Below, one piece after another: positions 1 through 19,996 of a stretch of 43,639 nucleotides of DNA. Below the pieces are notes generated by a model, which ran no database searches, was not told where the DNA came from, and was given only the letters and a program-made list of their open reading frames with translations. The number at the start of each line of letters is the position of its first letter. The first letter of the stretch is position 1. This DNA is from Eubacteriales bacterium (GTDB taxonomy: Bacteria > Bacillota > Clostridia > Peptostreptococcales > Anaerovoracaceae). The stretch is taken from the NCBI GenBank assembly GCA_028692535.1, contig JAQUXD010000003.1:1-43639 (forward strand), written 5' to 3'. Both the position numbers and the translations under genes were made by a program.

Positions 1-925
1 CTCTTGAAAGCGTAAACAGTATGCACAGGCATGCCGCGCCGACCGCGAAGAATGAAGCGATCTTCCACTTTGTCGCCTTGCAGTAATACATCATGGCTGC
101 CAGCATGGGCGCCGCCATGACGATCAAAGAACCGAAGACATTCGGACTTCCCGTCAAAGAAAACACCCTCGTTCGGACACCCATTTCCGTCTGACTCACC
201 CAGCTTGCCGGGATCTCAACACCCACAATGTACTGATAGATCCCGTGAAAGCTCAAGAGTAGAACGGTCATGGCAAAAGCGCCGTAGAGCGCCGCTGCGT
301 CCTTCCGATCCTCCAACAGGCGCAGGATCAGAAAAAACCAAACCATGTACTGCACCTGCGCGCGATATCCCGCAAGTGCCACCGCAGGAAACGGTCGATT
401 CAGCATCATCAGGAGAAGCCCGATCGCCATGAACAACAAAATGGAAGCTTCCAGCATATTCCCCCGGGCAAAGCTGTTGTTCCCGACGCGCATCCCACGC
501 CGCAGAACCAAAAGAACCCCTGCAGCGATGAACAATTCTTCCCATATTGAAGCGACCGCTGTCAGACCCAGTACATCTCGCAGCGCATACTCAATGGGCA
601 GGTAAAGCGCAAACAGCATCAGAAACCAACGATGAAAGGGAATCCTGCAAATTTGTGAAACGATCAGACTGTTCCGAGCGACGTTGTTAGGCAGTCGACC
701 GGAAGCGGTGATGAGCCGTGCTGAGATGCTGGTCTCCCAAAATTCGCCCAACGTCCACAGCAACTGCTGAATTTTTTTCAGCACACGCTGATAGCCGGAT
801 CGATCCGCAGGGTCTTCCGCTTCGCAAAAGGCCTCCCAGATACGCTTGGTTCCGGAGTGAAGATATCCCAACTCCATCGCAGACGGAAATCGGTTTAAAA
901 TACTGTTTTCGATCATTGCTTTCAT
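1..925 (-). CDS. O-antigen ligase/polymerase-like multi-pass membrane protein (partial, continues beyond window start)
   Basis: Manual minus-strand translation from the CAT at 923-925 (MKAMIENSILNRFPSAMELGYLHSGTKRIWEAF...) stays open to position 1. It contains several hydrophobic segments and a GVRTRVFSLTGSPNVFGSLIVMAAPM motif typical of Wzy/O-antigen ligase family proteins. It is not in the supplied ORF list because it is truncated. Confidence 0.7.
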   Translation of the reverse strand, partial: MKAMIENSILNRFPSAMELGYLHSGTKRIWEAFCEAEDPADRSGYQRVLKKIQQLLWTLGEFWETSISARLITASGRLPNNVARNSLIVSQICRIPFHRWFLMLFALYLPIEYALRDVLGLTAVASIWEELFIAAGVLLVLRRGMRVGNNSFARGNMLEASILLFMAIGLLLMMLNRPFPAVALAGYRAQVQYMVWFFLILRLLEDRKDAAALYGAFAMTVLLLSFHGIYQYIVGVEIPASWVSQTEMGVRTRVFSLTGSPNVFGSLIVMAAPMLAAMMYYCKATKWKIASFFAVGAACLCILFTLSR

Positions 926-937
926 CAGAACGCCCTC

Positions 938-1474
938 TTACATGATATCGCTCATGCCCTCAGGCGGATTGTATTCGCCCATTTCAACATAGCGGATCGT
1001 GCCGATGGATTCGAAGGTCTGGGTTTTGACGATGTAAGTCCTTCCGGCCCGAAGCTCCTGACTGCCGATCTTAGGGCTGGCCGTACCCTTCGGGACAGTG
1101 GCCCGAATCAGAACAACGATGGTCTTTTTCGTGGGGTCTTTGGCATCTACGATACGACCGTCTGCTGTGATTGCCTGCATCCAGTAATCTTCCAGCCACA
1201 GGTCTTCCACCGTGCCTTCTAAGTATTCGTTCCCGGAAACCAGCCTTTCTCCGGCCAGATCCTGACGGATCGCTTCCTCAAAGATCCTGGGCGCAGCTCC
1301 GATGATAGCGACTTCAGCATAGCAGTCCACCTTTTCGGATACAACATCCGTCACCTTAGCGCCAAGCAGCTGGACGGCAATGGCTCCGATCACGGCGATC
1401 ACAGCGATCACGGCAATCAGATCCACTACGTTGATCAACCCCAGCAGCTTCCCTTTTTCATCGATTAATTTCAT
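938..1474 (-). CDS. DUF4330 domain-containing protein
   Basis: 178 aa; N-terminus MKLIDEKGKLLGLINVVDLIAVIAVIAVIGA (single TM helix) is characteristic of DUF4330 proteins found in surface polysaccharide loci. Confidence 0.8.
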   Translation of the reverse strand: MKLIDEKGKLLGLINVVDLIAVIAVIAVIGAIAVQLLGAKVTDVVSEKVDCYAEVAIIGAAPRIFEEAIRQDLAGERLVSGNEYLEGTVEDLWLEDYWMQAITADGRIVDAKDPTKKTIVVLIRATVPKGTASPKIGSQELRAGRTYIVKTQTFESIGTIRYVEMGEYNPPEGMSDIM

Positions 1475-1492
1475 GTTCCCCTCCGTTGATTA

Positions 1493-2656
1493 CTATTCAA
1501 TCCAACCTAATATACTGCGCATCGCCCGAAGTCGCTCCTCCCAGGAGCAGCTTCTGGCAAGACGCATGCGTTCCGCTCTTCTCGGGTCGTCCGGCGATTC
1601 ACCGGCAGCCTCTCTGCACTTTTCAATAAATTCTTCGGTATCCTCAGCCAGGTAGATGCAATCGGCATATGCTTTGACCTGCAGCGGGACCGGAGTACTC
1701 ACCACCGGCTTTCCCGTTGCCAGGTATTCGTAAAACTTCAAAGGACTGACATCCTTAGAAAGTTCATTGTGGGCAAAGACATTCATGCACACATGAAATG
1801 GCAGCATGATCCGGGGCAACTGATCCTGGGGCACGAGTCCTCGACATTCCACATTGGGATATTCCCTCAGCCAGGAAAGATCGACCCCCGGCAGAGATCT
1901 CCCCACCAGTACAACCTTACCGTCGGGAAACGCTCCGGAAACGGCCCGGATGCAGTCGTAATCGATACATTCCTGAAGCATCCCCACGAACCCGAAGGTC
2001 AACGGGCGCTCCGCCTGCGGTGTCCATTCCGCCACAGAAGAAAACAGTTCGTAGTCCACACCGTTTGGAATCAAATGCGTGTTGGGATTCAGGGCGGACA
2101 ACCGGTCGTATAGTCCCTGCGCGGTAGCAAACACCGTTCCGGCCTTTCGGGCCAGATCCTCTTCCATGCTGTCCACCACACGGGGATCGATCATTCCGGG
2201 ATAGGCCGAATGCCTGTCTACACAATCGTAAATCGTCCGTTTCCAAAGCGCTTCGGCATCCATCCCCAGCAAGCCGGCCAGAGGAGCGATTAAATCTGCT
2301 GTCGAGGGAGAATAGCACCAAAGGTAAAAATCGTGACCGAAATTATTTTCTTTCAGCAAGCCCTTCAGATACACCGCCAGTTTTTTCTGATTGTAGCGGT
2401 TCAGCCCCCGCAGTTTGTTATAAAACGGAAGCACCGGCGGCGAAGCGTAGACCTTCAAGTGGTTCCTTTTGAGCACGCCGCCCTGCAGATAAGCGTGCAA
2501 TCGGTCACGCGCGTGGGGATCCTTGAGCGGAGCGATGAGCGTGACCGGCGGGTCCACGTACAGGACCTGCGCATCTGTCATCCGGTTCATGACATTCTGT
2601 TTTCGGGTGGGGATCGGATCGTAATTGGAAGTGGAGAGGCACAGGATCTTTCTCAT
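1493..2656 (-). CDS. Glycosyltransferase (GT-B fold, GT1/GT4-like)
   Basis: 387 aa; contains NGVDYELF, FGFVGMLQECIDYDCI and SPLKFYEYLATGKPVVSTPVP motifs. Overlaps the upstream gene by 4 bp. Confidence 0.85.
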   Translation of the reverse strand: MRKILCLSTSNYDPIPTRKQNVMNRMTDAQVLYVDPPVTLIAPLKDPHARDRLHAYLQGGVLKRNHLKVYASPPVLPFYNKLRGLNRYNQKKLAVYLKGLLKENNFGHDFYLWCYSPSTADLIAPLAGLLGMDAEALWKRTIYDCVDRHSAYPGMIDPRVVDSMEEDLARKAGTVFATAQGLYDRLSALNPNTHLIPNGVDYELFSSVAEWTPQAERPLTFGFVGMLQECIDYDCIRAVSGAFPDGKVVLVGRSLPGVDLSWLREYPNVECRGLVPQDQLPRIMLPFHVCMNVFAHNELSKDVSPLKFYEYLATGKPVVSTPVPLQVKAYADCIYLAEDTEEFIEKCREAAGESPDDPRRAERMRLARSCSWEERLRAMRSILGWIE

Positions 2657-4857
2657 GCGCGCCTCCTTTCCTGTGACAGCAGTTTTGCTGCCGCAAGCCC
2701 GTTGGATCGCTCCATCTCCTGCAGTCGTTTGCGCACAGCATCCCCCAACCGCTCATTTTCCTGTTCCATCATGGTGTCGATATGCCGGCAGAGCACCTCC
2801 GCCCGCAGACCTGTGAGCGAAACGCAGGCCGTCGATCCGATATCCTTGATAAAGCTATCCACTTTGACATCGTAGGAGATCCCCACCACCGGAGCGCCTC
2901 CTGCCGTGGCAAAAATCAGCGAGTGCAGCCTCATGCCCAGCACCAGCTTCATGGATCCCAACATTCCGATCAGATCCTCTACCGGATGTTGCTGCCGACA
3001 AACATAGTGGGGCGCTGACAGCATCAATGACACCTTCTCACCCACAGGCATATCCTTGGGCATCTCGATGGGCAGAAACACCGGTGTCAGACCGTAGGTG
3101 TCCCAGGCGTATTCTGCGGCTTTTGCCACTTCATCCGGTCGGGTAAACGTCTCCCATGCCCGCAGGCAAAAACCGATTTTGGGAATATCGGAAGGGATCC
3201 CTTCTCGTTCAAACGCTCTGCGCACACCCTCGGGACCGGCATGCTTCAGATTGACTGCGGGATCTGCGGCCAGAATGATTTCCGGTTTGATAACCCCCAT
3301 CTCCCGAAGGAGTTCCAAGGATACGCTGTCACGAAGGGTAATGATATCCGCGGTAGCATTCAGGACTCTCCCGGCAATCCGCCGGTTGCGCGGTCTGGAA
3401 ATGGGCCCGATCCCGCAGCCGTACATCACGATCCTGCAGCCGAAACGCCGGGCGGCCCACAGTGTAAACAGATAGAAATACAGCGAACGGCTGGAGGTGA
3501 CATCTTGGATCAGACTTCCTCCGCCGTTGACAAAAAGCCTTGCTTTTCGCAAGCTCTTTAAAAATGCTGGAACATTGAATATATAATAGCTTCCGACTCT
3601 TTCCTTCTGCCGGGTCTCGCCCGGATTCCGGGACATGACCTGAAATGGCATATCCTGATCGATCGCCCGCAGCTGGGTGAGAATGGCGCGCAGAATCGCT
3701 TCGTCGCCCGCATTCCCTCTTCCGTAGGCGCCGCAGAGGACCGCTCCGGTTCGTGTGCCGGCTGCCTTTCTTCGCAGGACCGTCTGGTAGATTTGCTGCT
3801 GATCCTGCTTCATCTTTTCCAGAGAAAACGCGTCGGAAGCCTTTTTGAAGAGATTATCCGCCAATTTTTCCCGGAGATCCGCGTCTTTGGCCAATTGCAA
3901 AATATATCCGGCAAAGGTTTCCACATCTCCCGGCTCAAAGAGGTAGCCGGTCACTTCGTGCTGGATCAAAGAAGGAATACCGCCTACGTTAGTGGCGATG
4001 GCAGGACAGTGTTGGTAAGCGCCCTCCAGCAGAGAGTACGGAAACGTCTCGGACAGAGACGCCAGCACATTGATATCGATTTCCGAAAAGTAGGTTTTGA
4101 TATCCTCGACCCAGCCTTCAAAGACTGTCACGTGATCGATGCCCAGTTGTCTGGTCATTTTCTTAAGAACGCTGGCATCCTCGCCTGTTCCCGCGATGGA
4201 CAGCCGAAGCCGGGGTTCCTTTTCGTAGGCCCGGGCAAAAGCCCGGATGACCGTGCCGATATCCTTGATCGGCGTCAGCCTGGCGGCGATCCCCACACGG
4301 ATCACATCCTCGGGTTGACGGGCGGGGCGGCCTTCCTTTTTTGCCAGGGAAAAATCCAGCCCGTTGTATACGGTAAAAATACTCTGCGGGTCGAAGCCCC
4401 GCTGGATCAGCAGCTCCTGCATGCGGTCGGCCACCGCCACGTAATAGTCCATCCTGCGAAGGGCGTATGCATTGATCAGGCCATAAGTATATTGCTTGAG
4501 CGGCATCCCCAGATAGTCCAATCGGGGGTCGGAATGGACGGTGGTCATGACAGGGACGCCCTTGAACTTCTTGACGAGAATACCCAGCATATTAGCCTTG
4601 GCTCCATGGCAGTGGATCACATCGGGCGCGAAGGCGTCCACCTGAGACAACGCCATTTTAAATGCATGGAACGTCCCCAGGCCGCTTTCCACCTCCAGGG
4701 TGTCGATCCCCATTTCCCGAGCCTCCTGGGATAAAACACCCCGACGGAAACTGATAAGCCGCAGCGTATTTTCTTCGGCGAGTTCCCTGGCCAGGGAAAG
4801 TATATGGGTTTTTCCACCCCCGATATCCCCTCCGGCGGCAAAGAGCATAATCCTCAT
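2653..4857 (-). CDS. Bifunctional fusion: N-terminal GT4 glycosyltransferase and C-terminal CsaB-type polysaccharide pyruvyl transferase
   Basis: 734 aa in one frame. N-terminal half has GT4 motifs (GGGKTHILSLARELAE, NGLDFSLAKKEGR, LLEGAYQHCPAIATNVGG). C-terminal half starts near GAVLCGAYGRGNAGDEAILRAI and has CsaB/PssM motifs (FVNGGGSLIQD, MYGCGIGPI, GMRLHSLIFATAGGAPVVGISYDVKV). Confidence 0.88.
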   Translation of the reverse strand: MRIMLFAAGGDIGGGKTHILSLARELAEENTLRLISFRRGVLSQEAREMGIDTLEVESGLGTFHAFKMALSQVDAFAPDVIHCHGAKANMLGILVKKFKGVPVMTTVHSDPRLDYLGMPLKQYTYGLINAYALRRMDYYVAVADRMQELLIQRGFDPQSIFTVYNGLDFSLAKKEGRPARQPEDVIRVGIAARLTPIKDIGTVIRAFARAYEKEPRLRLSIAGTGEDASVLKKMTRQLGIDHVTVFEGWVEDIKTYFSEIDINVLASLSETFPYSLLEGAYQHCPAIATNVGGIPSLIQHEVTGYLFEPGDVETFAGYILQLAKDADLREKLADNLFKKASDAFSLEKMKQDQQQIYQTVLRRKAAGTRTGAVLCGAYGRGNAGDEAILRAILTQLRAIDQDMPFQVMSRNPGETRQKERVGSYYIFNVPAFLKSLRKARLFVNGGGSLIQDVTSSRSLYFYLFTLWAARRFGCRIVMYGCGIGPISRPRNRRIAGRVLNATADIITLRDSVSLELLREMGVIKPEIILAADPAVNLKHAGPEGVRRAFEREGIPSDIPKIGFCLRAWETFTRPDEVAKAAEYAWDTYGLTPVFLPIEMPKDMPVGEKVSLMLSAPHYVCRQQHPVEDLIGMLGSMKLVLGMRLHSLIFATAGGAPVVGISYDVKVDSFIKDIGSTACVSLTGLRAEVLCRHIDTMMEQENERLGDAVRKRLQEMERSNGLAAAKLLSQERRRA

Positions 4858-4866
4858 AGTATTCCT

Positions 4867-7800
4867 TTAGTTCAGCTCGGATATGATTTTTGCGATTTGG
4901 GCACGGGTCACATTCCCGGCGGGATCCAGTTTCCCGTTGAAACCCGTAATGACGCCCTGCCCCACCAGCGTGCTGACATAAGGCAGCGCCCAGGACGCAA
5001 CGAGATGCGCATCTGTGAAGTTCATTTCCGCTCGGGCGTATCCTTTTTCCTGAATTCTCCCGATCACCGTCATCACTTCCTGTCTGGAAATGGGTCCTGC
5101 GGGATCGAAATTGACCTTGTTGCTGCCCGACACAGCCTTCCCGGCCATAAAGCCTTGCGCCAAAGCTGCCCGCACCGAATTTTGCGCCCAATCCTGGATC
5201 TGGGATGTGTCTGCAAACGTCAGCTTGGTATCCTTGTATTTCTCGGGGTCGATGCCAAGCCAGCGAACCATGACGGCTGCAAACTCCTGCCGTGTCATGG
5301 TCTTGTTCGGGTCATAGATCCGCTTTTCCCCCGAAAGCCGTCCGGTAATAATATTTTGCCTGTAGAGATACTCCGCAAAAGGCGTTGCCCAATGGGTCTC
5401 GGACATATCGTCAAACGCTTGCTCCAAGACGAAATCCTCATCGTCTGAAACCGTGGCAACGGCAAAACCGAGCCGTCCGATATTCCCGCTCTGATCCGTC
5501 GCCCGAATGAGCACCCGGTGTTCATAGCCGTCACCGTCTGGCAGGAGAACCGAGAGACTCTTGTTGCCTTCATTATAATCAAAGGCAATCGGATCTCCGT
5601 CGTAGGTGACCGTGATGTCGGACTTGGACAAACCGCTGTCCAGTTCATCCGCAACCGTTCCGACCAAAACAGAGGCTGCCACATCGGCACGAATCACCGG
5701 TGGTTTGTCGTCCAGATAGTAGCCGAATCCGGCCATCATCTGATCCATGTAGACCGTCCCGCTACCCTGTGTACTCGGGATTCCTCGGATCGAAAGCCCG
5801 TCCAGACTCGTCACACCTTTGGGAAGATGCACATATGCCAGTTTCCATCCCTGATGGTTCAATTCCGTCAGCGTGACGCTCTGACGCTCCTGGTCTGCTG
5901 TGACCGAAAGCTGCAAAACTTCGTTGGATCCGTTCCCGTAGACCCAGGCGCTGATCATCGTAGGATTTTTATCCGTAAACGATTGCGCCAACGGAAGCAT
6001 CAGCTCCTCCGGAACACCGATTGCGCCTTCCGTGGTGACCGCAGCGTTACGAAGGTCATATGCATAGGTCAGCTCCAGACTCTTTTTGCCATTGTGAACA
6101 TAAACCGGATTGGACTGGACAGCGGCGCGCAGACCTCCGTATGTCCCGGGCGTCAGCGAGAGCGCATCCTCATCCTCGAAATTTTCCAACGCTTTTCCCT
6201 CTGTGACCACCGTCACTTTTACGGAGTCACTCTTGCCGCCGGCAGTCGCCGTTACGATGCCGGTCCCCAGTTCCGTAGTCGTAGCCGTGAACAGGCCTTT
6301 TTCGTCAATCGCGCCGATGGTTCCTTCCACCGACCATGTGTAGGCGGATGGATCGGACACCAGCTTCAACATCCTATACGTTGCTTCCGCTGACAATTGA
6401 ACTGTTTCGCCTGCGGCAACGGACAGCAATTCAGGAACATCCGCGTCGGTATCCGGAACAACGAGGGAGACGCTGTCCGGAGAAGCGACCACAGAAACCG
6501 ATGCCGATCCGCCGGTCTTTCCGTAGCGCGCGCTTACACTTCCGGTAAGCGCCTGCGTGCCGGCGGTGAACACGCCCTGCTCTGATATCGTGCCCAGATT
6601 TTTTGAGCTGAGACTATAGGTAACACCTGATGCAGGCGCTTTCACATAGTAGTAGTTCGCATCGCTGGCGCGCAGCTCCAGTGCCATCTGTGAACCTGCC
6701 AGAATATGTGTATCATAGGGATACAAGTGTAAGTGACGAACCGAATCGGAGGGTGTTGCATTGTTTTGAAAAAGCAAATAATTGCCACATCGCCGCAGAG
6801 ATGTGCCCGAACTCTGATTCACCTGGGCCCGGTCCTCATAACCCGGGTAGGTGGCAAACAGCATCGTGGAATCTCCGCCGTCCAGATTCGCAGCGTCAAG
6901 GCATCCCAGCTCCTCCATTCTCGCAGCCAGTTCCGCAAAGGTCATGCCCATGGAATGATCGCTTTGACGGCCATCCACCGTATACAGCACGACCGATCCG
7001 TCTTCGCGGATCCCGATGGCTGTTCTGGGCGCACGCCCCGTGTCGGTGAAAGAAGCGATCTGCCCGTCGGTGATCAGCCGCTTTTCCACACCGACGGCCT
7101 GAACGACATCGTGCCACCGCGTATCCGTTAAGAAATCGATCACGATAGAATCGCCGATATTCATATTCTTCATTTGAGTCAGCGCCGACACATAGGGACA
7201 CTCGGCCGCGACGGAGAGCACCAGCTGGCCGTCCTGCAGTGCCAGCTTCTCTGTGCCGTCGAATGTGGCGGAAACCGTTCCCTGGAGCATTTCTCCCGGA
7301 GCCGCTTCCCCTGATTCCAGGTCGATGATCACATTTCGTGTCGGAAAAGCCGCTTCGTTGGTCGGCCCGAAATCCGACGAATAGAGGATCACACCGTTGC
7401 TCGGTGTAAGCGGCTTGTTGAATATCACATTGTTGAAAACGCCATCCGTATTCAGGTTCTTGATATTCACGGAAAGACCCATTCGACCGATCATCGCAGT
7501 TCCGTCTTCCATAAATCCGATGGTTTCAAAGGTACTGTGTTCACCCGTGCGAAGAATGCCGTCCTTGATCACAGCGCCCAGAGAAACACCGGTCGCCATG
7601 GTAAAATAGTCTCCGTTTGAAGCCCCAACGATCCTGCGGCCGGCCGCTTCTTCGATCTCATAGATCCGGGAAATACCCGCTGCGCCGTAGACATCATTTC
7701 CATACGAAACAAAGGGCGTGATATCATTTCCCGGTTCGTACACCATATAGTTTTCTGCGGTTTTAGCGGAATTGGCACTGTTGAAATAAATCCCCTGAAA

Positions 7801-7950
7801 CAGTGTCATCTGATCATTGATGACAAGGGTAGCGCTTCGCAGCTCGTTGAAACCCGATGCTCCGTAAATCGATGCCGGCAGGCCTGTAATCATCATGGCC
7901 ATCGCCAGCACAAGACTGATCCCCTTGTTCAATATTCTCTTTTCTCTCAT
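4867..7950 (-). CDS. Secreted phosphodiester glycosidase (NAGPA-like) with Ig-like repeats and C-terminal SLH domains
   Basis: 1027 aa; signal peptide MREKRILNKGISLVLAMAMMITGLPASIYGA. NAGPA/phosphodiester glycosidase core (APRTAIGIREDGSVVLYTVDGR, ANLDGGDSTMLFA). Ig-like repeats follow, then about three SLH motifs (WATPFAEYLYRQNIITG, WAQNSVRAALAQGFMAG, WALPYVSTLVGQGVITGFNG). Confidence 0.9.
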   Translation of the reverse strand: MREKRILNKGISLVLAMAMMITGLPASIYGASGFNELRSATLVINDQMTLFQGIYFNSANSAKTAENYMVYEPGNDITPFVSYGNDVYGAAGISRIYEIEEAAGRRIVGASNGDYFTMATGVSLGAVIKDGILRTGEHSTFETIGFMEDGTAMIGRMGLSVNIKNLNTDGVFNNVIFNKPLTPSNGVILYSSDFGPTNEAAFPTRNVIIDLESGEAAPGEMLQGTVSATFDGTEKLALQDGQLVLSVAAECPYVSALTQMKNMNIGDSIVIDFLTDTRWHDVVQAVGVEKRLITDGQIASFTDTGRAPRTAIGIREDGSVVLYTVDGRQSDHSMGMTFAELAARMEELGCLDAANLDGGDSTMLFATYPGYEDRAQVNQSSGTSLRRCGNYLLFQNNATPSDSVRHLHLYPYDTHILAGSQMALELRASDANYYYVKAPASGVTYSLSSKNLGTISEQGVFTAGTQALTGSVSARYGKTGGSASVSVVASPDSVSLVVPDTDADVPELLSVAAGETVQLSAEATYRMLKLVSDPSAYTWSVEGTIGAIDEKGLFTATTTELGTGIVTATAGGKSDSVKVTVVTEGKALENFEDEDALSLTPGTYGGLRAAVQSNPVYVHNGKKSLELTYAYDLRNAAVTTEGAIGVPEELMLPLAQSFTDKNPTMISAWVYGNGSNEVLQLSVTADQERQSVTLTELNHQGWKLAYVHLPKGVTSLDGLSIRGIPSTQGSGTVYMDQMMAGFGYYLDDKPPVIRADVAASVLVGTVADELDSGLSKSDITVTYDGDPIAFDYNEGNKSLSVLLPDGDGYEHRVLIRATDQSGNIGRLGFAVATVSDDEDFVLEQAFDDMSETHWATPFAEYLYRQNIITGRLSGEKRIYDPNKTMTRQEFAAVMVRWLGIDPEKYKDTKLTFADTSQIQDWAQNSVRAALAQGFMAGKAVSGSNKVNFDPAGPISRQEVMTVIGRIQEKGYARAEMNFTDAHLVASWALPYVSTLVGQGVITGFNGKLDPAGNVTRAQIAKIISELN

Positions 7951-8001
7951 GAATCCCTTTCCCCCTGAATGGCAGATTGGAATATCTGCCGTACTTCTGC
8001 T

Positions 8002-8439
8002 TTACATTATCGTGTATGTGCCTTTGACCATCACCCAGCTTCGGGTTTCGCAGTACAGACCGCGCCCGTCATCCTTGGGCACCAGCAGCAAATGATTGAA
8101 TGAAACCGCATTCCCGGTCTTCAAGTCTTTGCCGGCTGTCAGGTCCGAGATTCCGTCGATCCCGTTGTCGATGGCCGTGGCTTTCCCTCCGCGCAGGATC
8201 AGTTCGGTGCCGGCTCCACCGATCAGCTTAACACCCGCGCTCACTTCCACTACCTGAAAACTCCCGGACTGCGGTGCGTCGGACAGGGAGGCAAACAGTT
8301 CGTCTACGTAGCTTTTGGTCACGACCGGATCTGCGGCAGTGCCTGCGCCGCTTTCAGCGCCGAAAACGCCGGTGCCGTGGAGCACCATACTCAGTGCGAC
8401 CAGAAGAATCAACGCCCCTGTACTTGCTTTTTTAACCAT
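8002..8439 (-). CDS. Small secreted protein of unknown function
   Basis: About 145 aa from MVKKASTGALILLVALSMVLHGTGVFGA (signal peptide). RBS AAGGAG lies upstream of the chosen ATG. The track ORF extends to 8505 but the extra N-terminus crosses the RBS and leader. Only 51 bp upstream of the SLH gene. Confidence 0.75.
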   Translation of the reverse strand: MVKKASTGALILLVALSMVLHGTGVFGAESGAGTAADPVVTKSYVDELFASLSDAPQSGSFQVVEVSAGVKLIGGAGTELILRGGKATAIDNGIDGISDLTAGKDLKTGNAVSFNHLLLVPKDDGRGLYCETRSWVMVKGTYTIM

Positions 8440-8493
8440 TTCCATCTCCTTCTTAATCTGCTGCCGCACACCATATTTTGTGTTGCCCTCATG

Positions 8494-8528
8494 AAAAACG
8501 GGCATATATCGTTATTATATATGCCCGT
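8494..8528 (-). terminator. Rho-independent terminator downstream of nnrD-like gene (also overlaps a promoter)
   Basis: Perfect 12-bp inverted repeat ACGGGCATATAT-cgttatt-ATATATGCCCGT (8498-8528), followed on the minus strand by TTTTT. Confidence 0.75.
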
Positions 8529-8542
8529 ATTCCCGGTGTCAA
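8514..8542 (-). promoter_or_regulatory. Consensus sigma-A promoter for the surface locus
   Basis: Minus strand TTGACA (8537-8542), 17-bp spacer, TATAAT (8514-8519). Exact consensus hexamers and spacing. Confidence 0.8.
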
Positions 8543-8561
8543 CGAAATGGGGTCCGACAGT

Positions 8562-9413
8562 CTAACGTCCGACCACATCCAAAAGCGCTCTCGGAATCGC
8601 GGAGAGGATATCTCCTGCGATCAAGCTGTATTGGCCCAGGCCCTCGCAAGCCAGATCGCCGGCCAAACCGTGTATAAACACGCCGGCGACGGCAGATGAA
8701 CATACTGCCGGATCTCTTCGTTTCATCTGCGCCGCAAATGCGGCAATGACACCCGTCAGCACGTCGCCGGCTCCGGCGGTGGCCATACCCGGGTTTCCCG
8801 TAGTATTCACATACAGTTCTCCGTTCGGATCTGACACCAGTGTGTCGGCGCCTTTCAGCACGCAGCAAACCTTGTTTGTGCGAGCCAGACCCAGAACTGC
8901 CGCTTCTCTGTCGGCGACCACGTCGCCCGGTTCGATTCGAAGCAGACGGGCTGCCTCTCCTTCGTGAGGCGTGATGATGATCCCTTTTCCCGCTCCTTTC
9001 AGCGGGAGCTGAAAAGCAGCTGCCGCGTTCAATGCGTCCGCGTCGATCACTGTGATTCCCGTGTGATTGTCCAGCACCAAAGACAGCAGCCGCGCCGTTT
9101 CAGGTGTCACCCTTAGCCCGGGCCCGATGGCCACGGCATCGTTTCGTCTTAGTTCTTCGACGGGAAGGTCCCGGCTGCAGCACATGGCTTCCGGAACACA
9201 GCAGTGAATCACCGGGAAGTATGCAGGATCGCAAGACACCGTCACCAGCCCTGCGCCGCTTCGCAGCGCAGCCTTTGCGCACAGTACAGCGGCGCCCATC
9301 ATTCCCGCGCTCCCGGCTACGATCAGCACGCGCCCGTAATCACCCTTGTGAGATTCTCTTGCACGCGCAGGAAGCCATTCCCGGATCCTGTCGGCAGTAA
9401 TCGGTGTCAACAT
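8562..9413 (-). CDS. nnrD: ADP-dependent NAD(P)H-hydrate dehydratase (YjeF C-terminal/carbohydrate kinase family)
   Basis: 283 aa; GRVLIVAGSAGMMGAAVLCAKAALRSGAGLVTV, ITPHEGEAARLL and NTTGNPGMATAGAGDVLTGVIAA motifs. No epimerase domain. Confidence 0.9.
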   Translation of the reverse strand: MLTPITADRIREWLPARARESHKGDYGRVLIVAGSAGMMGAAVLCAKAALRSGAGLVTVSCDPAYFPVIHCCVPEAMCCSRDLPVEELRRNDAVAIGPGLRVTPETARLLSLVLDNHTGITVIDADALNAAAAFQLPLKGAGKGIIITPHEGEAARLLRIEPGDVVADREAAVLGLARTNKVCCVLKGADTLVSDPNGELYVNTTGNPGMATAGAGDVLTGVIAAFAAQMKRRDPAVCSSAVAGVFIHGLAGDLACEGLGQYSLIAGDILSAIPRALLDVVGR

Positions 9414-9483
9414 ATCGTATTCTCCTTAAAATGCAGAGCGGCAGGATCTGCTCCCGCCGCTCCGATTTTCTATCCGTCCGTTT

Positions 9484-10830
9484 TTAGACATACCCTTGTG
9501 CGGTCATTGCCTCGGCCACTTTCAGGAAACCGGCGATGTTGGCGCCGGCCACCAGGTTGTAGCCAAAACCGTATTCCTTCGATGCAGCTTCCGCGTTGTC
9601 ATGAATGTTCTTCATGATGGTCTCGAGCTGCTCGTAAACCTCTTCTCTCTTCATGGGCATTTTGCGGGAGTTCTGGCTCATTTCTATGGCAGAACAGGCA
9701 ACACCGCCGGCATTGGCCGCCTTGGCCGGTCCGACGGTGACTCCGTTGGCCATAAGGTATTCCAACGCCTCGTTGGTCGTAGGCATATTGGCGCCTTCGC
9801 AGTAATATTTGCATCCGCTGGCAACGATCTGCTTGGCGTGCTCCATGTGAACATCGTTCTGCATGGCACAGGGGATATACAGATCCGCTTTGACGCCCCA
9901 GGGTTTTTCGCCGGGGAAGAATTTGGAGCCGGGGAACTTGTCTGCGTAGGGCTTGCAGATGTTTTTACCGCTGTTGCGCAGTTCCAGCATGAAGTCGACT
10001 TTCTCACCGGAAATGCCGGCTTCGTCCAGAATGTACCCATCCGGACCGGAGAAGGCCAGCAGTTTGGCACCCAGTTCGTTCAGCTTGATAGCCGTGCCCC
10101 AGGCCACATTGCCGAATCCGGAAATGACCACAGTTTTCCCTTCCAGCTTATCGCCGCAGGCTTCCAGCATGTTGCGGGCAAAAAATACGATGCCGTAACC
10201 CGTAGCTTCCGTTCTTCCGGGAAGACCGCCGTAGACGATGCCCTTCCCTGTGATGACGCCGCCGTCAAATTTAGTGGTAAGGCGCTTGTACTGGCCGTAG
10301 AGATAGCCGATTTCTCTGGCGCCGACACCCAGATCGCCTGCGGGCACATCGATCTCCGGACCGATGTGGCGATAGAGTTCTGTCATGAAGGACTGGCAGA
10401 AGCGCATGATTTCTCCGTCAGACTTCCCGTTGGGATCAAAATCGGAACCGCCCTTGGCGCCGCCGATCGGAAGGCCTGTGAGCGCATTCTTAAAAATCTG
10501 CTCAAAGCCCAAGAATTTCATGATGCCGGGATATACGCTGGGAGCAAAACGAAGTCCGCCTTTATAGGGGCCTAATGCGCTGTTGAACTGATAACGATAT
10601 CCTCTGTTGACCTGAACTTTGCCCTTGTCATCCACCCAGGTGACGCGGAACGAAATGCCTCTTTCCGGTTCGATCAGCCGCTCGATCATGCCGGATTCGA
10701 CCAGATCAGGACGTTTCTGCAGGACAGGTTCCAACGAGGACAATACCTCTTCGATGGTTTGCAGAAATTCCGGCTCACCGGGATTTCTTTTCTGGGCGAT
10801 TTCGATATACTGATCTACAATTCTTCCCAT
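9484..10830 (-). CDS. gdhA: NADP-specific glutamate dehydrogenase
   Basis: 448 aa; PYKGGLRFAPSVYPGIMKFLGFEQIFKNALTGLPIGGAKGGSDFDPNGKSDGEIMRFCQSFM is diagnostic of hexameric GDH. Confidence 0.97.
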   Translation of the reverse strand: MGRIVDQYIEIAQKRNPGEPEFLQTIEEVLSSLEPVLQKRPDLVESGMIERLIEPERGISFRVTWVDDKGKVQVNRGYRYQFNSALGPYKGGLRFAPSVYPGIMKFLGFEQIFKNALTGLPIGGAKGGSDFDPNGKSDGEIMRFCQSFMTELYRHIGPEIDVPAGDLGVGAREIGYLYGQYKRLTTKFDGGVITGKGIVYGGLPGRTEATGYGIVFFARNMLEACGDKLEGKTVVISGFGNVAWGTAIKLNELGAKLLAFSGPDGYILDEAGISGEKVDFMLELRNSGKNICKPYADKFPGSKFFPGEKPWGVKADLYIPCAMQNDVHMEHAKQIVASGCKYYCEGANMPTTNEALEYLMANGVTVGPAKAANAGGVACSAIEMSQNSRKMPMKREEVYEQLETIMKNIHDNAEAASKEYGFGYNLVAGANIAGFLKVAEAMTAQGYV

Positions 10831-11017
10831 TTTTCTCCTCTTTCCTATATCATCAGATCTTCACGTAACAATACGGCAGTTTTGCCTGCCACTCTCTTTG
10901 TTAATAATAGCACAAAGGGTTTTTGCCCACAACAAACCCCTTGAAAAACCTAATTCTTTTGGCATATTCCGATATGACAAATATTATTCGCCATCCTTTC
11001 CATATTAAAATAATTTG

Positions 11018-11046
11018 TTGACAAAATTGCGCCGTGGGAGTATTAA
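11018..11046 (+). promoter_or_regulatory. Putative sigma-A promoter of SPFH gene
   Basis: TTGACA at 11018-11023, 17 bp, then TATTAA at 11041-11046; an additional TATAAT lies at 11047-11052. Confidence 0.45.
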
Positions 11047-11107
11047 TATAATATCTTTGTGATATTGTTTTGATATTATTATCGCTTTTTATTGTATAGG
11101 AGGTCAA

Positions 11108-12157
11108 ATGACAATGGAAAACCCGGTCGTACAAATCAAAGATGCAGAACAGGAAAAGCTTCTGCATCCCGTCAACGGCATGCTGATGCTGATTATGAAC
11201 ATTATGCTGATGGCCGCATCGCTTTTCGCAGGACTGGCTTGCTTCTCCATGGCATGGCGCAGCGGGTTCTTTATCTTGATGGGACTTATATGCATGACTT
11301 ATCTGGCAGTTGTCGGCCCGTTCCTGTTCAAAGGGCTGAAAATCGTCAATCCCAACGAAGCTGTCGTTCTGACGCTGTTCGGTCATTACATCGGAAGCAT
11401 CAAAGATCCGGGGTTCTACTATGTGAATCCTTTTGCCTCGGTATTCAACCCCACCGCCGGATCTTCGCTGGACGCAGAGGCGCTGGCATCAGCCGTTTCG
11501 GGCGCCGCGCACAGCGGCACAAGCAGCAAGAGAGAAACCGGCAAGCCCACGGTCAAAGGCAAACGGATCTCACTGAAGGCCATGACGCTCAATAACGCAA
11601 AGCAAAAGGTCAATGATGTGCTGGGAAACCCCATCGACATCGGCGTGGTTGTGATCTGGAAGGTGCGCGACACAGCCAAAGCTGTCTTTAATGTGGATAA
11701 TTACCTGGAGTACGTATCCATACAGACCGACTCGGCGTTGCGCAACGTGGCCAGGCTTTATCCCTACGACATCGCCGGCGATGGAGAGGAAGGCGACGAA
11801 ATGTCTCTTCGCGGGTCCAGTCAGGCCGTGTCAAAAAAGCTCGAAGAGGAAATTCAGGCTCGCGTAGCCATCGCAGGCATCGATGTGCTGGAAGCCCGAA
11901 TCACCCATCTGGCCTACGCACAGGAAATCGCAGCCGCCATGCTTCAAAGACAGCAGGCTTCAGCCATCATCGATGCCAGGAAAATGATTGTCGAAGGTGC
12001 CGTAGGCATGGTTGAAATGGCATTGGATATGCTTTCAGAAAAAGACATGGTCACGCTGGACGAAGAGCGGAAGGCGGCCATGGTCAGCAATTTGCTGGTC
12101 GTTCTGTGCGGGAACAAGGATGCGCAGCCCATCGTAAACAGCGGATCTATTTATTAA
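11108..12157 (+). CDS. SPFH (stomatin/prohibitin/flotillin, band 7) domain membrane protein
   Basis: 349 aa; two N-terminal TM segments, NPNEAVVLTLFGHYIGSIKDPGFYYVNPF, and ARITHLAYAQEIAAAMLQRQQASAIIDARKMIVEGAVGMV (band 7). AGGAGG just upstream; start could be 11108 or 11114. Confidence 0.9.
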   Translation: MTMENPVVQIKDAEQEKLLHPVNGMLMLIMNIMLMAASLFAGLACFSMAWRSGFFILMGLICMTYLAVVGPFLFKGLKIVNPNEAVVLTLFGHYIGSIKDPGFYYVNPFASVFNPTAGSSLDAEALASAVSGAAHSGTSSKRETGKPTVKGKRISLKAMTLNNAKQKVNDVLGNPIDIGVVVIWKVRDTAKAVFNVDNYLEYVSIQTDSALRNVARLYPYDIAGDGEEGDEMSLRGSSQAVSKKLEEEIQARVAIAGIDVLEARITHLAYAQEIAAAMLQRQQASAIIDARKMIVEGAVGMVEMALDMLSEKDMVTLDEERKAAMVSNLLVVLCGNKDAQPIVNSGSIY

Positions 12158-12197
12158 ACGTACGGTCAAGCGACGCAAGGAGAAAGGAGAGAACGAT

Positions 12198-12377
12198 ATG
12201 CCGAAGGAAACGACTGCAAACTCGGATAAGAAACAGCTTCTCCTTCGTTTGTCTCCCGGTCTTTGGAAAGAGTTGGCAGCCTGGGCCGATGATGACTTCA
12301 GATCCATCAACAGTCAGATCGAATATCTTCTGACAGAATGTGTGAGGCAGCGCAAAAAAGGCACTCCCAAAGCCTGA
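12198..12377 (+). CDS. Small ribbon-helix-helix (Arc-like) protein
   Basis: 59 aa read directly from the sequence: MPKETTANSDKKQLLLRLSPGLWKELAAWADDDFRSINSQIEYLLTECVRQRKKGTPKA. RBS-like AGAAAGGAGA upstream; follows the SPFH gene on the same strand. Confidence 0.75.
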   Translation: MPKETTANSDKKQLLLRLSPGLWKELAAWADDDFRSINSQIEYLLTECVRQRKKGTPKA

Positions 12378-12432
12378 TCCCGCTTCGCCTCTGTCAACTG
12401 CGGCCGATGATGCCGGAACTGGGAGGGATATT

Positions 12433-12657
12433 ATGAACAAAGAAGAAAAATGGAACGCTTACGATTCTGAAACACGGAAAGACGGCAGTTGGGACGGAAG
12501 ATTCTATATCGCCGTCAAAACGACCGGAATCTTTTGCCTTCCGTCTTGTAAAGCACGTCCGCCGCTGCGCAAGAACATCGAATTGCTGGACTCCGTGGAC
12601 GAGTGCCTGACAGCCGGGTATCGTCCCTGCAAGCGCTGTCATCCGGATCGTGCATGA
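12433..12657 (+). CDS. Stand-alone Ada-type metal-binding domain protein
   Basis: 74 aa; TGIFCLPSCKARPPLRKNIELLDSVDECLTAGYRPCKRCHPDRA matches the Ada N-terminal Zn-binding domain with all four Cys (CxxxC...CxxC). GGGAGG upstream. Confidence 0.88.
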   Translation: MNKEEKWNAYDSETRKDGSWDGRFYIAVKTTGIFCLPSCKARPPLRKNIELLDSVDECLTAGYRPCKRCHPDRA

Positions 12658-12660
12658 TAC

Positions 12661-12700
12661 AACCCGCAAAAAACGGGCTAAGGCCCGTTTTTTGTGGGTT
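12661..12700. terminator. Bidirectional Rho-independent terminator between convergent genes
   Basis: AACCCGCAAAAAACGGGC-taag-GCCCGTTTTTTGTGGGTT: 18-bp stem with one G.U wobble and A/T tracts in both orientations. Confidence 0.85.
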
Positions 12701-12743
12701 ATTGATACTTCGAAGAGATCGAAGAAGTATCTACATCCTTTGA

Positions 12744-13670
12744 TCAGCGATCTTCGCGGAAATAGGGGCGACTCATGTTCGCCGGTCCCAGATTGCCTTT
12801 TCCGCTCTTGCGCGTCGACAGAATCACGATAAGAATGGTGGCCAGATAGGGGATCATGTCCACAAGATACTGCGAAAACGAAAATCCCATGGCCTGAAGC
12901 CGCAAACCAAGGATCGACAATCCGCCAAAGAGCATGGCTGCAAAAAAAGCCTTGAGCGGATTCCAGGAAGCAAAGATCACCAGCGCTACAGCAATCCATC
13001 CTCTGCCGGCGACCACGTCCACCTGCCAGATCGGGATACGAACGATGGACAGGTACGCGCCACCCAAGCCGCACAAAGCTCCGCCAATCAGGATGTGGGT
13101 ATATTTGTACAGATTCACGTTTATGCCGGACGCATCGGCAGCAGCTGTGTTCTCCCCTACTGCTACCAGATTTAGTCCGAGGCGGGTCCTATATAAATAA
13201 ACCGCTGAAAAAATACAGATGATATATCCGAAATACACAAACAGATCCTGTCGAAATAGGATCGGTCCCACATAAGGGATGTCGGCCAAAACACCTGCTG
13301 CCCGCTTGGCGAAAAATGCGGAAACCTCGGCAGGGACCGTCGAACCCAGCATGGGCTGCCCCACGAAACTGGCAACTCCTGTGCCGAATATCGTCAACGT
13401 CAATCCGGTGACCGTCTGATTGGCCCGCAGCGTTACCGTGAGAATAGCATAAATCAAAGCGCCCCCGGCTCCGGCCAACCCTGCGCCGAGCAATGCCGCG
13501 TAGGGATTCTGCGTGCTCATAGCCGTGGCAAAGCCAGCGATGGCGCCCAGCAGCATCATTCCCTCTACGCCCAGGTTCAGACTGCCGGACCGTTCGGTAA
13601 TGATCTCGCCGATGATGGCAAACAGCAACGGTGTTCCCGCTACGATGCAGGTTGCAAGAAAGGATTGCAT
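12744..13670 (-). CDS. BMP-family nucleoside ABC transporter permease (NupQ/YufQ-like)
   Basis: 308 aa; TPLLFAIIGEIITERSGSLNLGVEGMMLLGA is typical of this permease family. Confidence 0.9.
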   Translation of the reverse strand: MQSFLATCIVAGTPLLFAIIGEIITERSGSLNLGVEGMMLLGAIAGFATAMSTQNPYAALLGAGLAGAGGALIYAILTVTLRANQTVTGLTLTIFGTGVASFVGQPMLGSTVPAEVSAFFAKRAAGVLADIPYVGPILFRQDLFVYFGYIICIFSAVYLYRTRLGLNLVAVGENTAAADASGINVNLYKYTHILIGGALCGLGGAYLSIVRIPIWQVDVVAGRGWIAVALVIFASWNPLKAFFAAMLFGGLSILGLRLQAMGFSFSQYLVDMIPYLATILIVILSTRKSGKGNLGPANMSRPYFREDR

Positions 13671-14746
13671 TAGGCCACCTCCTTCTGAAGCTGCGGAACT
13701 CGACCGATCTTATACTGGAGGAAAAATTCACTGCCCAGCACAAAAAACAGGATCGTTCCCTGAACAATGCTGGACACAGAACTCGGCACATTCATGGCGA
13801 TCTGGATATAAGCGCCTCCTTGGATGAGCATCGCAAAAACGATACAAACCAGCAGGATCGCCGCGGAGTTGAGCCGCGCCAGCCATGCGGTAATGATGGC
13901 CGTAAAACCATAGTTGTTGGCAATGCTGTAGACCAGGCTCTTTTCAATGGCCGAGGCCTGGATCATCCCTACAAGACCGCACATCCCGCCGGACAGCAAC
14001 ATGGCTGTGATGATGATGTTGCTGATGTTCATTCCCGCATAACGGGCGGTTTCCACGCTCTGACCCACCACGGATATTTCATATCCCTTTTTTGTTTTAC
14101 TGATGAACACATGTACAACTATCACCAGAACCAATGCGATGATCCAGCCGATGTGAAGACCAAACACATTGGGCAGGATCGCGTTTTCGGAAAACATGGC
14201 GATTTTCGGGAAGCCCTGAGCGGCAGGATCGATCCAGGGACCATACTGAAGATACATGACAAACTTGATGGCGATGTAATTGAGCATCAGCGTAAAAATC
14301 GTCTCGTTGGTGCCCAGCTTTGCTTTGAATATCGCCGGGATAAAAGCCCACAGGCCACCGGCAACGATTGCCGCCATAGCCATAACCAGGAGCATGACCG
14401 GCTTTGGCGTGGTCTGGCCCAGGTTCAAGGCGACAAAGGTCGCAGCAGCCGCGCCCAGCGTGATCTGCCCTTCCGCTCCGATATTCCAGAATTTCATTCG
14501 GAAGGCCACCGATATGCCCAAAGACGCAATACATAAAGGGATCGCTTTGATCAACGTCTGCTTGATCCGCATCTGCGTCCCCACAGATCCCACAACAAGA
14601 GATTTGAATATCTCAAATGGATCGAGTCCGAAAAAAAGCATAATCACACCGGCAAAGACAATGGATAACACGACGGCCAGGACCCGAACCGCATATTCTT
14701 TTTTACGAGGCATAACATCCCGTTTGGTCACCCTTAAAGCGATCAT
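13670..14746 (-). CDS. BMP-family nucleoside ABC transporter permease (NupP/YufP-like)
   Basis: 358 aa; IASLGISVAFRMKFWNIGAEGQITLGAAAATFVAL motif; overlaps neighbouring genes. Confidence 0.9.
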   Translation of the reverse strand: MIALRVTKRDVMPRKKEYAVRVLAVVLSIVFAGVIMLFFGLDPFEIFKSLVVGSVGTQMRIKQTLIKAIPLCIASLGISVAFRMKFWNIGAEGQITLGAAAATFVALNLGQTTPKPVMLLVMAMAAIVAGGLWAFIPAIFKAKLGTNETIFTLMLNYIAIKFVMYLQYGPWIDPAAQGFPKIAMFSENAILPNVFGLHIGWIIALVLVIVVHVFISKTKKGYEISVVGQSVETARYAGMNISNIIITAMLLSGGMCGLVGMIQASAIEKSLVYSIANNYGFTAIITAWLARLNSAAILLVCIVFAMLIQGGAYIQIAMNVPSSVSSIVQGTILFFVLGSEFFLQYKIGRVPQLQKEVA

Positions 14747-16275
14747 TGCGCGTTCACCTCCACTTCTTTTCTGCGTCCTGTCATCAGCAGGCCGATCTCC
14801 TCCTTCGTCACGCCGGAAGGATCCACGATTCCGGTCACCTCGCCGTGGCAGAGGACCAGGATCCGGTCACAAAGGTCCATGAGCACATCCAGATCTTCGC
14901 CGACGAACAATACCCCCACGCCCTTTTCCTTTTGTTCATTCAACATGTCGTAAATTTTATAAGATGCCCCGATGTCAAGGCCTCTTACCGCATAGGCAGT
15001 AATAAGCACCTTCGGTGAAGAATCGATCTCCCGTCCCAGCAACACCTTCTGAATATTTCCGCCGGAGAGCTGCTGGACCGAGGTGTAAATGCTGGGTGTT
15101 TGGATATCCAGTTCCCGCACGATCTTCTTTGCCTTTTCCGTACACTCTTCCTTTTGGATCAATAGCCCCGGCTGATTCTGATAATCCTTCAGAATGATGT
15201 TGGAAACGATATCCATGCTCCCCACCAGGCCCATGCCCAGCCTGTCTTCGGGAATAAAGCCCATGCGAATACCCAGTTGAATGATGTCCCTGGGCGTCTT
15301 TCCCACCAGGTTGTCCCCTTCGAAGAAGATCCGCCCTTTGTCCGGCCGGATCAATCCGGCGATGGATTCGCACAATTCCTTCTGGCCGCTGTTGGCCACG
15401 CCGGCTACACCCAGGATCTCGTATTTCCGAAGCTCGAAGCTGACTTCAGACAACGCTTTCTTTCCCTCGCTGTCCAGCACCGTCACTTCGTCCATTTCCA
15501 GAAGCACCTGCCGCCGGTCCGCATCGATAGACTTCTTGGTGATTTGAAGGTCTACTTTCTTTCCCACCATCATCTCGATCAGGTTGGGAATATCCACGTC
15601 CATCGTATTGACCGTGCCGATAGAGGATCCTTTCCGCAAAACAGTCACCCGGTCGGAAATTTCCATGACCTCGTTAAGCTTATGCGTGATGATCACAACG
15701 GCACAACCCTGCTGTTTCATGTTGCGAATGATACGAAACAGCTTCTTGATCTCCTGTGGCGTCAATACCGCCGTGGGCTCGTCCATAATGAGGATCCGCG
15801 CGCCCCGATATAACACTTTGAGGATCTCCAGCGTCTGCTTTTCGCCCACAGACATATCGCAGACGCACTTGTCCGGATCGATGTCCAATCCGTATCGATC
15901 CGACAATTCGCGGATCTTGTGTGACAAGGATTTCGTTCGAAGCATAAACCCTACGGGCTGGCCGATGAGGATGTTTTCCGTCGCCGTCATCACATCCACC
16001 AGATTAAAATGCTGGTAGATCATCCCGATCCCCCGCCGAATGGCATCCTTGGGAGACGAAAAACGAACCGGCTCTCCGTAGAGGCGGATCATCCCGCTGT
16101 CCGGCGTGTATATGCCTGACAACATGTTCATCAACGTGGATTTTCCGGCGCCGTTTTCGCCCAGGATCGCGTGGACCTCGCCTTGCGAGACATCCAGATA
16201 CACATCCTTGTTTGCCTGGATCGGACCAAAGGACTTGGATATGCCCATCATTTCTATTGCTGTGGTTTTTTCCAC
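14743..16275 (-). CDS. BMP-family nucleoside ABC transporter ATP-binding protein (two NBDs, NupO/YufO-like)
   Basis: 510 aa; Walker A GENGAGKSTLMNMLSG, MSVGEKQTLEILKVLYRGARILIMDEPTAVLTPQE, second LSGGNIQKVLLGREI. Confidence 0.95.
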   Translation of the reverse strand: MEKTTAIEMMGISKSFGPIQANKDVYLDVSQGEVHAILGENGAGKSTLMNMLSGIYTPDSGMIRLYGEPVRFSSPKDAIRRGIGMIYQHFNLVDVMTATENILIGQPVGFMLRTKSLSHKIRELSDRYGLDIDPDKCVCDMSVGEKQTLEILKVLYRGARILIMDEPTAVLTPQEIKKLFRIIRNMKQQGCAVVIITHKLNEVMEISDRVTVLRKGSSIGTVNTMDVDIPNLIEMMVGKKVDLQITKKSIDADRRQVLLEMDEVTVLDSEGKKALSEVSFELRKYEILGVAGVANSGQKELCESIAGLIRPDKGRIFFEGDNLVGKTPRDIIQLGIRMGFIPEDRLGMGLVGSMDIVSNIILKDYQNQPGLLIQKEECTEKAKKIVRELDIQTPSIYTSVQQLSGGNIQKVLLGREIDSSPKVLITAYAVRGLDIGASYKIYDMLNEQKEKGVGVLFVGEDLDVLMDLCDRILVLCHGEVTGIVDPSGVTKEEIGLLMTGRRKEVEVNAQ

Positions 16276-16361
16276 CTGTATCCTCCCTCGGAGAAAAATA
16301 GGGAAAGTCCAAAGGACTCCCCCTATCCTCCTTGTATGTTCACCTTACGCAGAGAGGTGTC

Positions 16362-17456
16362 TTATTTTGCGCCTTTGACCAGCTGGCCGATGGCCCAGAT
16401 CTGGCCTCTGTCCAAGGATTGTCCTTCTTCGCAGAGGACAGTTCCGTCGGCGTTTTCGATATATCCTGAGAACGGAGCAAAGGTTCCGGCAACCATTTCG
16501 GCTTTCTTCGCCTCGACAAGCTGCTGGACTTCGGCCGGAACCAGATCGCTCATAGGCGCCAGGGCGATATAGCCGGTCGCCATGGTTCCGTAATAGCTTT
16601 CGGGTTTAAACGTTCCGGCCAGAATATTTTCCACAGCATAAATGTAATATGCATCGTGGTGCCAGATCGGCGCGGTCAGGTATGCATTCGGTGCGGCGGG
16701 ATTGGCTAAGTTGTAGCCGATCGCATAAGCGCCGGCATCCTGCGCGGCAAGCTGGGGACCGGTGGAGTCGCTGTGCTGCGTAATAATATCGCAACCCTCT
16801 GCCAGAAGCTGTTCCGCGGCTGCCAGTTCTTTTTCGGGATCTCCCCAGGAACCGATGTATACGACACTCACTTCCACGTCCGGATTGACAGACTGGGCGC
16901 CGAGTGTATAGGCATTGATGCCGATCATCACTTCAGTATAGGGCATGGCACCCACATAACCGAGTTTGTTGCTCTCAGTCATGGAGCCTGCGACCATGCC
17001 TGCCAGATATCTGGCTTCGTCGATGGAACCAAAGAAATTGTCAAAGTTGGTCTCGTTCGCCATGTACCCCGAAAAATGGAGGAAGTACTTGTCGTCGTAA
17101 TCTCCGCTGTTGGCCAGCTGGTCCAAAGCTTCCATAAATCCGAAAGAAGCTCCGACGATCACGTCGCAGCCCTGATCCAGAAGATTCTGGCCCGCAGTCA
17201 AGGATGCCTGCGTATCGCTGTCATTGACGTTTTCAATATACTTGAAATCTACTTTTCCTTCGAAGTGCTCCTTCATTCTTACGGCACCCTCATAATGAGC
17301 CTGCGTATAGCCGCCGTCATTGATGGGTCCGATAAAGATGAAGCCGACTGTGAGTTCAGGCTCAGTGACTTCCGGTTGTTCTTCTCCGCCGCCGCAGGCA
17401 GCAAAAGATCCCAGGGCCAGAGCAAGAATCAGTACCAGTGCGAAAATCTTTTTCAT
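16362..17456 (-). CDS. BMP family substrate-binding lipoprotein
   Basis: 364 aa; lipobox LALGSFAACGGG; GFIFIGPINDGGYTQAHYEG typical of Bmp/NupN family. Confidence 0.93.
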   Translation of the reverse strand: MKKIFALVLILALALGSFAACGGGEEQPEVTEPELTVGFIFIGPINDGGYTQAHYEGAVRMKEHFEGKVDFKYIENVNDSDTQASLTAGQNLLDQGCDVIVGASFGFMEALDQLANSGDYDDKYFLHFSGYMANETNFDNFFGSIDEARYLAGMVAGSMTESNKLGYVGAMPYTEVMIGINAYTLGAQSVNPDVEVSVVYIGSWGDPEKELAAAEQLLAEGCDIITQHSDSTGPQLAAQDAGAYAIGYNLANPAAPNAYLTAPIWHHDAYYIYAVENILAGTFKPESYYGTMATGYIALAPMSDLVPAEVQQLVEAKKAEMVAGTFAPFSGYIENADGTVLCEEGQSLDRGQIWAIGQLVKGAK

Positions 17457-17488
17457 AGTTCCGTTTCTCCTTTTTCTCTGAAGTGATG

Positions 17489-18067
17489 TTATATAAATTC
17501 TATGTTACCGTCCGTGATGGACCGAATAACCGCAAGGGATTCCACAAGGTAGCCGGCCTCTTTTAGCTTGCCGCTGCCGCCCTGGAATTGTTTTTCGATC
17601 ACGACGCCGATCCCCGCCACGGCGGCTCCGGCATTTTTCACCAGTCTCGTGAGGCCCATTGCCGATTCTCCGTAAGCCAGAAAATCATCAATAATAAGAA
17701 TTCTGTCTGTCGGCTGCAAATACTTCCTGGACACCCGAATCGTAGACACGGTCTCCTTGGTAAAGGATTTCACGTCCGTGCTGTACACGCCCTCCACCAT
17801 GGTGTTGGGCGCTGCCTTTTTCGCAAAGACGACCGGAAGATACCCCATGGCTCTGGAAACAGCGCAAGCCACCGGGATCCCGGAGCTCTCCACGGTCAGG
17901 ATCTTTGTGACCGAGTGCCCGGCAAACCGCCCGGCCAGCTCCCGACCGATCTCATCCATGAGCGCCACGTCGATCTGGTGATTTAAAAAAGAGTCCACTT
18001 TCAGAACTCCTCTTCCTATTCCCTGACCTTCCCGCACGATGCGTTCTATGAGTGCCTCCATCGGCAT
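17489..18067 (-). CDS. xpt: Xanthine phosphoribosyltransferase
   Basis: 192 aa; MEALIERIVREGQGIGRGVLKVDSFLNHQIDVALM and PRPP motif ILIIDDFLAYGESAMGL. Confidence 0.93.
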   Translation of the reverse strand: MPMEALIERIVREGQGIGRGVLKVDSFLNHQIDVALMDEIGRELAGRFAGHSVTKILTVESSGIPVACAVSRAMGYLPVVFAKKAAPNTMVEGVYSTDVKSFTKETVSTIRVSRKYLQPTDRILIIDDFLAYGESAMGLTRLVKNAGAAVAGIGVVIEKQFQGGSGKLKEAGYLVESLAVIRSITDGNIEFI

Positions 18068-18111
18068 ATCTTCTCCCGTTTTCCAAAAACAATCGTAATC
18101 AGTACGTTATA

Positions 18112-18139
18112 ATTATATGCGCTTTGACCGGAATGTAAA
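18112..18139 (-). promoter_or_regulatory. Putative sigma-A promoter of xpt and the BMP transporter genes
   Basis: Minus strand TTTACA (18134-18139), 16 bp, TATAAT (18112-18117). Confidence 0.6.
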
Positions 18140-18173
18140 GATTATTCAAAGAAATATGCCATTGCTTCCAAGA

Positions 18174-18211
18174 TAAAAAAAAGAATGTTCGAATATATCC
18201 GAACATTCTTT
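18174..18211 (-). terminator. Rho-independent terminator of the lemA-DUF2207 unit
   Basis: Minus strand AAAGAATGTTCGG-atatat-TCGAACATTCTTT followed by a T run; 33 bp after the DUF2207 stop. Confidence 0.8.
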
Positions 18212-18243
18212 ATTCATCTTGACCTTATTGTTCAGGCAAGATC

Positions 18244-19977: not shown

Positions 19978-19996
19978 GGATTCTCCCCCGGGCCGA

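Follow-up and report, generated by a model that had tools for sequence, protein, structure and literature searches.

On the minus strand of the window (the whole stretch of DNA that was analysed, 43,639 nucleotides), positions 8494 to 8542 lie between a gene for an NAD(P)H-hydrate dehydratase of the nnrD type (8562..9413) and a cluster of genes for surface proteins. Farther upstream on the same strand is gdhA, which has its own hairpin past its stop codon (9464-9434). The first gene of the downstream unit (8002..8439) starts at 8439 after AAGGAG and encodes a protein of 145 amino acids with a signal-peptide-like N-terminus and no Pfam or NCBIfam match. It is followed, also on the minus strand, by a gene for a NAGPA phosphodiester glycosidase with SLH domains (4867..7950) and by one for a glycosyltransferase fused to a CsaB-type polysaccharide pyruvyl transferase (2653..4857; TIGR03609 at 239 bits, cut-off 213.1). 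These assignments agree with an earlier note on this DNA, which had placed the element between nnrD and an SLH/CsaB cluster. Among the neighbouring genes, no regulator gene adjoined the element.

The minus strand reads TTGACA at 8542-8537, a spacer of 17 nt, and TATAAT at 8519-8514, and thus matches the consensus at 12/12 positions. This site ranked best among the 20 promoter-like sites in positions 1-20000, and exact-consensus promoters occurred at a mean of only 0.01 per dinucleotide-shuffled window. The hexamers and their spacing are those of a sigma-A/sigma-70 promoter (TTGACA, 16 to 18 nt, TATAAT), and they are kept in four genomes of the genus. From the position of the -10 hexamer, transcription is predicted to start at about A8507 (8505..8508).

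Interlaced with this promoter is a perfect inverted repeat, ACGGGCATATAT-N7-ATATATGCCCGT (8498..8528, minus strand), in which 12/12 positions pair. Its left arm spans 8528-8517, its loop of 7 nt 8516-8510, and its right arm 8509-8498, and the repeat can be extended to arms of 15 nt (93%). The final three bases of the 5' arm (TAT) and the initial three of the loop (AAT) together form the -10 hexamer (8514..8519). At the foot of the hairpin is a run of five T (8494..8498), the first of which also closes the right arm. The earlier note had described the consensus promoter, the repeat, loop, T-run and shared TATAAT, and its description was correct to the base. The window contains three perfect inverted repeats whose arms are 12 bp or longer and whose loops are 3 to 10 long, compared with a mean of 0.07 per dinucleotide-shuffled window; the other two are the hairpins 12667-12694 and 18180-18211. 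Neither the consensus promoter nor the perfect palindrome is expected by chance in the window. Pattern searches, which underlie all of the genome-wide statements made here, found exact TTGACA-N16..18-TATAAT 21 times in the 1.67-Mb genome. The 12-bp perfect repeat over the -10/start region at this locus was by far the longest among those 21 sites, the next being 9 and 8 bp.

Terminator-like features of the hairpin

The hairpin has the stable stem and GC-rich base of an intrinsic terminator. Five of the 12 bp in the stem are GC pairs, and those at the stem base adjoin the T-run, which is present beside the hairpin on one strand only. The folding energy was -14.9 kcal/mol for the 29-nt core and -19.1 kcal/mol (z -5.9) with flanks. 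The hairpin lies 33 nt past the nnrD stop codon and is the only one to pass the terminator screens in the interval from that stop to the surface gene. No Rfam family matched at the element. Intrinsic (Rho-independent) terminators of Bacillota likewise have a GC-rich stem base, a short loop and a U-run just past a stop codon. Unlike them, this element encodes in its 5' arm and loop a full-consensus -10 that is closely preceded by the -35 on the same strand.

Every one of the four genomes of the genus (G000 to G003) has at least four T after the GC base of the stem. Counted from the stem's last G, there are five in G000 and G002, six in G001 and four in G003, so that a terminator-like U-run is present throughout and is marginal in G003, where the four T are followed by an A. 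Using a d'Aubenton-type score, we obtained 3.2 for G000 and G002, -6.7 for G003 and 16.7 for G001; a good terminator elsewhere in the window scored 28.7. These values suggest that the strength of the putative terminator is only moderate, and poor in G003.

Conservation and distribution

The element is present in 4/4 genomes of the genus, once in each, before the same secreted-protein/NAGPA-SLH cluster. Conservation of the palindrome in relatives had been proposed in advance as a test that could refute the idea, and the palindrome withstood it, being found at the orthologous place in each of the four. The -35 region, the arms, the AAT and four T were invariant at 40/40 positions, made up of TTCGTTGACAC, which contains TTGACA (8537..8542), at 11/11, the 5' arm at 11/11, the AAT at 3/3, the 3' arm at 11/11 and TTTT at 4/4. 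The 11-bp core of the arms, CGGGCATATAT/ATATATGCCCG, was identical in G000 to G003. By comparison, only 1/8 positions of the free spacer and 3/14 of the stretch past the T-run were invariant, and within the loop the AAT of the -10 was kept but none of the other four bases (0/4). Fourfold-site identity in the gene after the element was 38/72 for G002, 32/69 for G003 and 20/56 for G001 (53, 46 and 36%), which implies that neutral sites are nearly randomised in G001. Because all 40 positions are kept while the spacer and loop vary and neutral sites approach saturation, the promoter and, separately, the palindrome are both under selection.

Neither a change nor a compensatory swap was seen among the 22 core arm bases in the four genomes; as the core arms do not vary, there are no compensatory changes to see. 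Control terminators vary or not: 18180-18211 is changed in G003 with its pairing kept, and the gdhA hairpin is changed in G001. The terminator at 28788-28809 (minus strand; AGGGGCAACTTCGGTTGCCCCT, with a UUCG loop) is invariant in 4/4 genomes.

In G001, nnrD is replaced after gdhA by an unrelated gene, which we read as encoding a putative metallo-beta-lactamase-fold protein, whereas the other three genomes have nnrD. The element is still intact there despite the new upstream gene and therefore belongs with the downstream cluster.

Using the protein encoded downstream of the element, we fetched orthologous loci from 60 other genomes. Orthologues of the 145-amino-acid protein were present in 31/61 genomes searched, its own included, and a reading of the flanking sequence indicated that the gene in relatives often follows nnrD or a MazF-like gene. 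The palindrome is single copy in its own genome. A search of the four genus genomes allowing up to 3 mismatches found no second copy, and neither did one that accepted weaker arms and let the spacing vary; a palindrome regulon was rejected for this reason. The element was absent from the other 347 genomes of the family that were examined. Other genera of the family yielded four 3-mismatch matches, which is the chance level, since a reversed control pattern gave a similar number; 0/4 lie before this locus and 3/4 are inside long open frames. A mobile or phage origin was rejected as well, because viral contigs held no copy of the palindrome and in genome_contigs it was absent from other species and present only in three MAGs of the genus.

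In L045 and L046, two relatives from the same taxonomic order, this gene also comes after a terminator-like hairpin and T-run, but the promoter-like site is a separate one some tens of bases farther on, so that the two functions exist there in unfused form. Judging from these two relatives, the genus seems to have merged two elements that stand apart in others.

Readings of the interlaced promoter and hairpin

We think it probable that the element is a genus-specific composite junction, in which an intrinsic terminator on the nnrD side is interlaced with a housekeeping-sigma promoter of the surface cluster. A single 45-base stretch in one genus of uncultured Clostridia appears to end one message and start the next. 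Polymerase arriving from upstream would transcribe both arms, and its RNA would fold the 12-bp hairpin with the GC-rich base beside the U-run, such that part of the upstream transcription would terminate just beyond the start site. Polymerase recruited at the promoter, presumably with sigma-A, would start in or just after the loop at about 8507, and its RNA would carry the right arm alone and elongate into the surface operon. Since a transcript from about 8507 would be without the 5' arm, the terminator hairpin could not refold, which supports what the earlier note had argued for a transcript starting at the element. This layout would insulate the surface operon from upstream transcription, leave the operon's own transcription unblocked and need no dedicated repressor. 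The moderate terminator scores and the short T-run of G003 count against the composite junction. In addition, the identity of all 22 arm bases exceeds what base pairing alone needs, and a conserved box in the 5'-UTR (ACAAAATATGGTG, 8469..8481, minus strand), whose spacing from the hairpin is constant in 4/4 genus genomes, is left unexplained.

Overlap of a terminator with the next promoter has a precedent in E. coli frd-ampC, where a terminator marks the overlap between one operon's end and the promoter of the following operon. That terminator is downstream of the ampC promoter and is an attenuator on ampC RNA. In contrast, the promoter of the element would start transcription inside the hairpin, and its own RNA would escape. 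The element is unusual in its layout, not in its principle. A shallow literature search turned up neither a useful paper containing the motif nor a clear precedent for the layout. If confirmed, the element would be a natural, conserved promoter-in-terminator, in which the stop hairpin can form in RNA arriving from upstream but not in RNA begun at the element. It would then offer a minimal directional insulator and a native template for testing terminator-to-promoter recycling, as well as a caution that palindromes at a -10 may not be operators. In E. coli, single-molecule work has shown that polymerase often remains on the DNA after intrinsic termination and can reinitiate nearby (PMC6978380), and terminators and promoters lie close together in both E. 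coli and B. subtilis (PMC11347151). The element shares this proximity, with a promoter less than 1000 bp from a terminator, so that released polymerase could reinitiate; here the distance is near zero, and reinitiation is speculation. It is very improbable that polymerase, after terminating at the hairpin, remains on the template a few tens of bases beyond the promoter and starts again there, so that upstream termination would feed expression of the surface cluster and not merely insulate it.

The earlier note had gone further and offered the palindrome as a repressor operator. In its stronger form, this reading makes the palindrome chiefly an operator over the -10 and start (about -22 to +10) that would switch the surface operon, with the T-run secondary; we regard it as doubtful, if worth serious consideration. 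Repressor operators that overlap a -10 have a palindrome centred between -10 and +1, and the element shares that position, with perfect symmetry centred at about -6 in a conserved palindrome that overlaps the promoter. A full-consensus promoter is also a plausible target for repression, and the 22 core arm bases stay invariant without a compensatory swap at near-saturated neutral divergence. Moreover, two other exact-consensus promoters of the genome (L010 and L012, 1501-1560 in each) have palindromes over the -10, without a long GC-based stem. L010 precedes a gene for an HTH-like protein that looks DNA binding and would be an ordinary operator case, L012 precedes one for a 210-amino-acid protein that may be a regulator, and both are candidate autoregulatory operators. 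However, the element differs from such operators in having a single site per genome, with none else at up to 3 mismatches, and no adjacent regulator gene; the next gene encodes a secreted protein, unlike the autoregulation suggested by L010. Both facts argue against a typical operator and lower its odds, and a distant regulator with a single target is possible. An operator has no need of a GC-rich base and T-run in terminator layout. Because identity of the arms is just as complete in the plain terminator at 28788-28809 (4/4 genomes), it is no proof of protein binding, and we rejected it as such after this control. Of the earlier interpretation, therefore, the interlaced promoter and terminator-like hairpin are supported and the repressor operator is not.

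The remaining readings would each dispense with part of the composite junction. Conservation of the -10 and -35, together with the modest terminator scores, would fit a promoter acting alone, with the hairpin a by-product of the sequence around the -10. Yet the 3' arm and the GC half of the 5' arm are invariant outside the hexamers while the adjoining spacer is not, and no other candidate terminator stands between the upstream and surface units, which makes this reading very improbable. It is still harder to believe that the terminator alone is functional and the promoter match accidental. A plain terminator hairpin would keep its arms too, but it would need neither TTCGTTGACAC nor the AAT of the loop, both of which are invariant while the remaining loop varies, and the rarity of the exact consensus in shuffled windows speaks against accident. 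Finally, the inverted repeats that flank part of the -10 could bring to mind an invertible, phase-variable promoter switch. The segment would be only 7 bp, the loop faces the same way in 4/4 genomes and no recombinase was found among the neighbouring genes examined, and the chance of such a switch is negligible.

Predicted leader and a separate terminator and promoter

The leader from the predicted start (about 8507) to the start codon at 8439 would be about 68 nt. As a regulon motif, the UTR box was rejected; it had one extra copy (L080), at the end of an unrelated long open frame. A hairpin at the 5' end of the transcript (GCCC/GGGC) is lost by sequence in G002 and G003. A short frame, MPVF...TKYGV (8440-8505, minus strand), begins with an AUG at the predicted start. 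Only in this genome does it continue in frame into the gene; the frame from the 8505 AUG ends at the gene's start codon in G002 and G003. A leader peptide from this AUG was also rejected, as MPVFHEGNTKYGV, MPVLHDFSTKYGV and MPVFCVRHTKCGG share residues, end differently and are without a ribosome site.

Elsewhere on the minus strand, 18068-18211 contains a strong terminator (18211-18180) followed by a separate near-consensus promoter (18139-18112), which is an ordinary arrangement. The gene after that promoter (17489-18067) is read as encoding a phosphoribosyltransferase.
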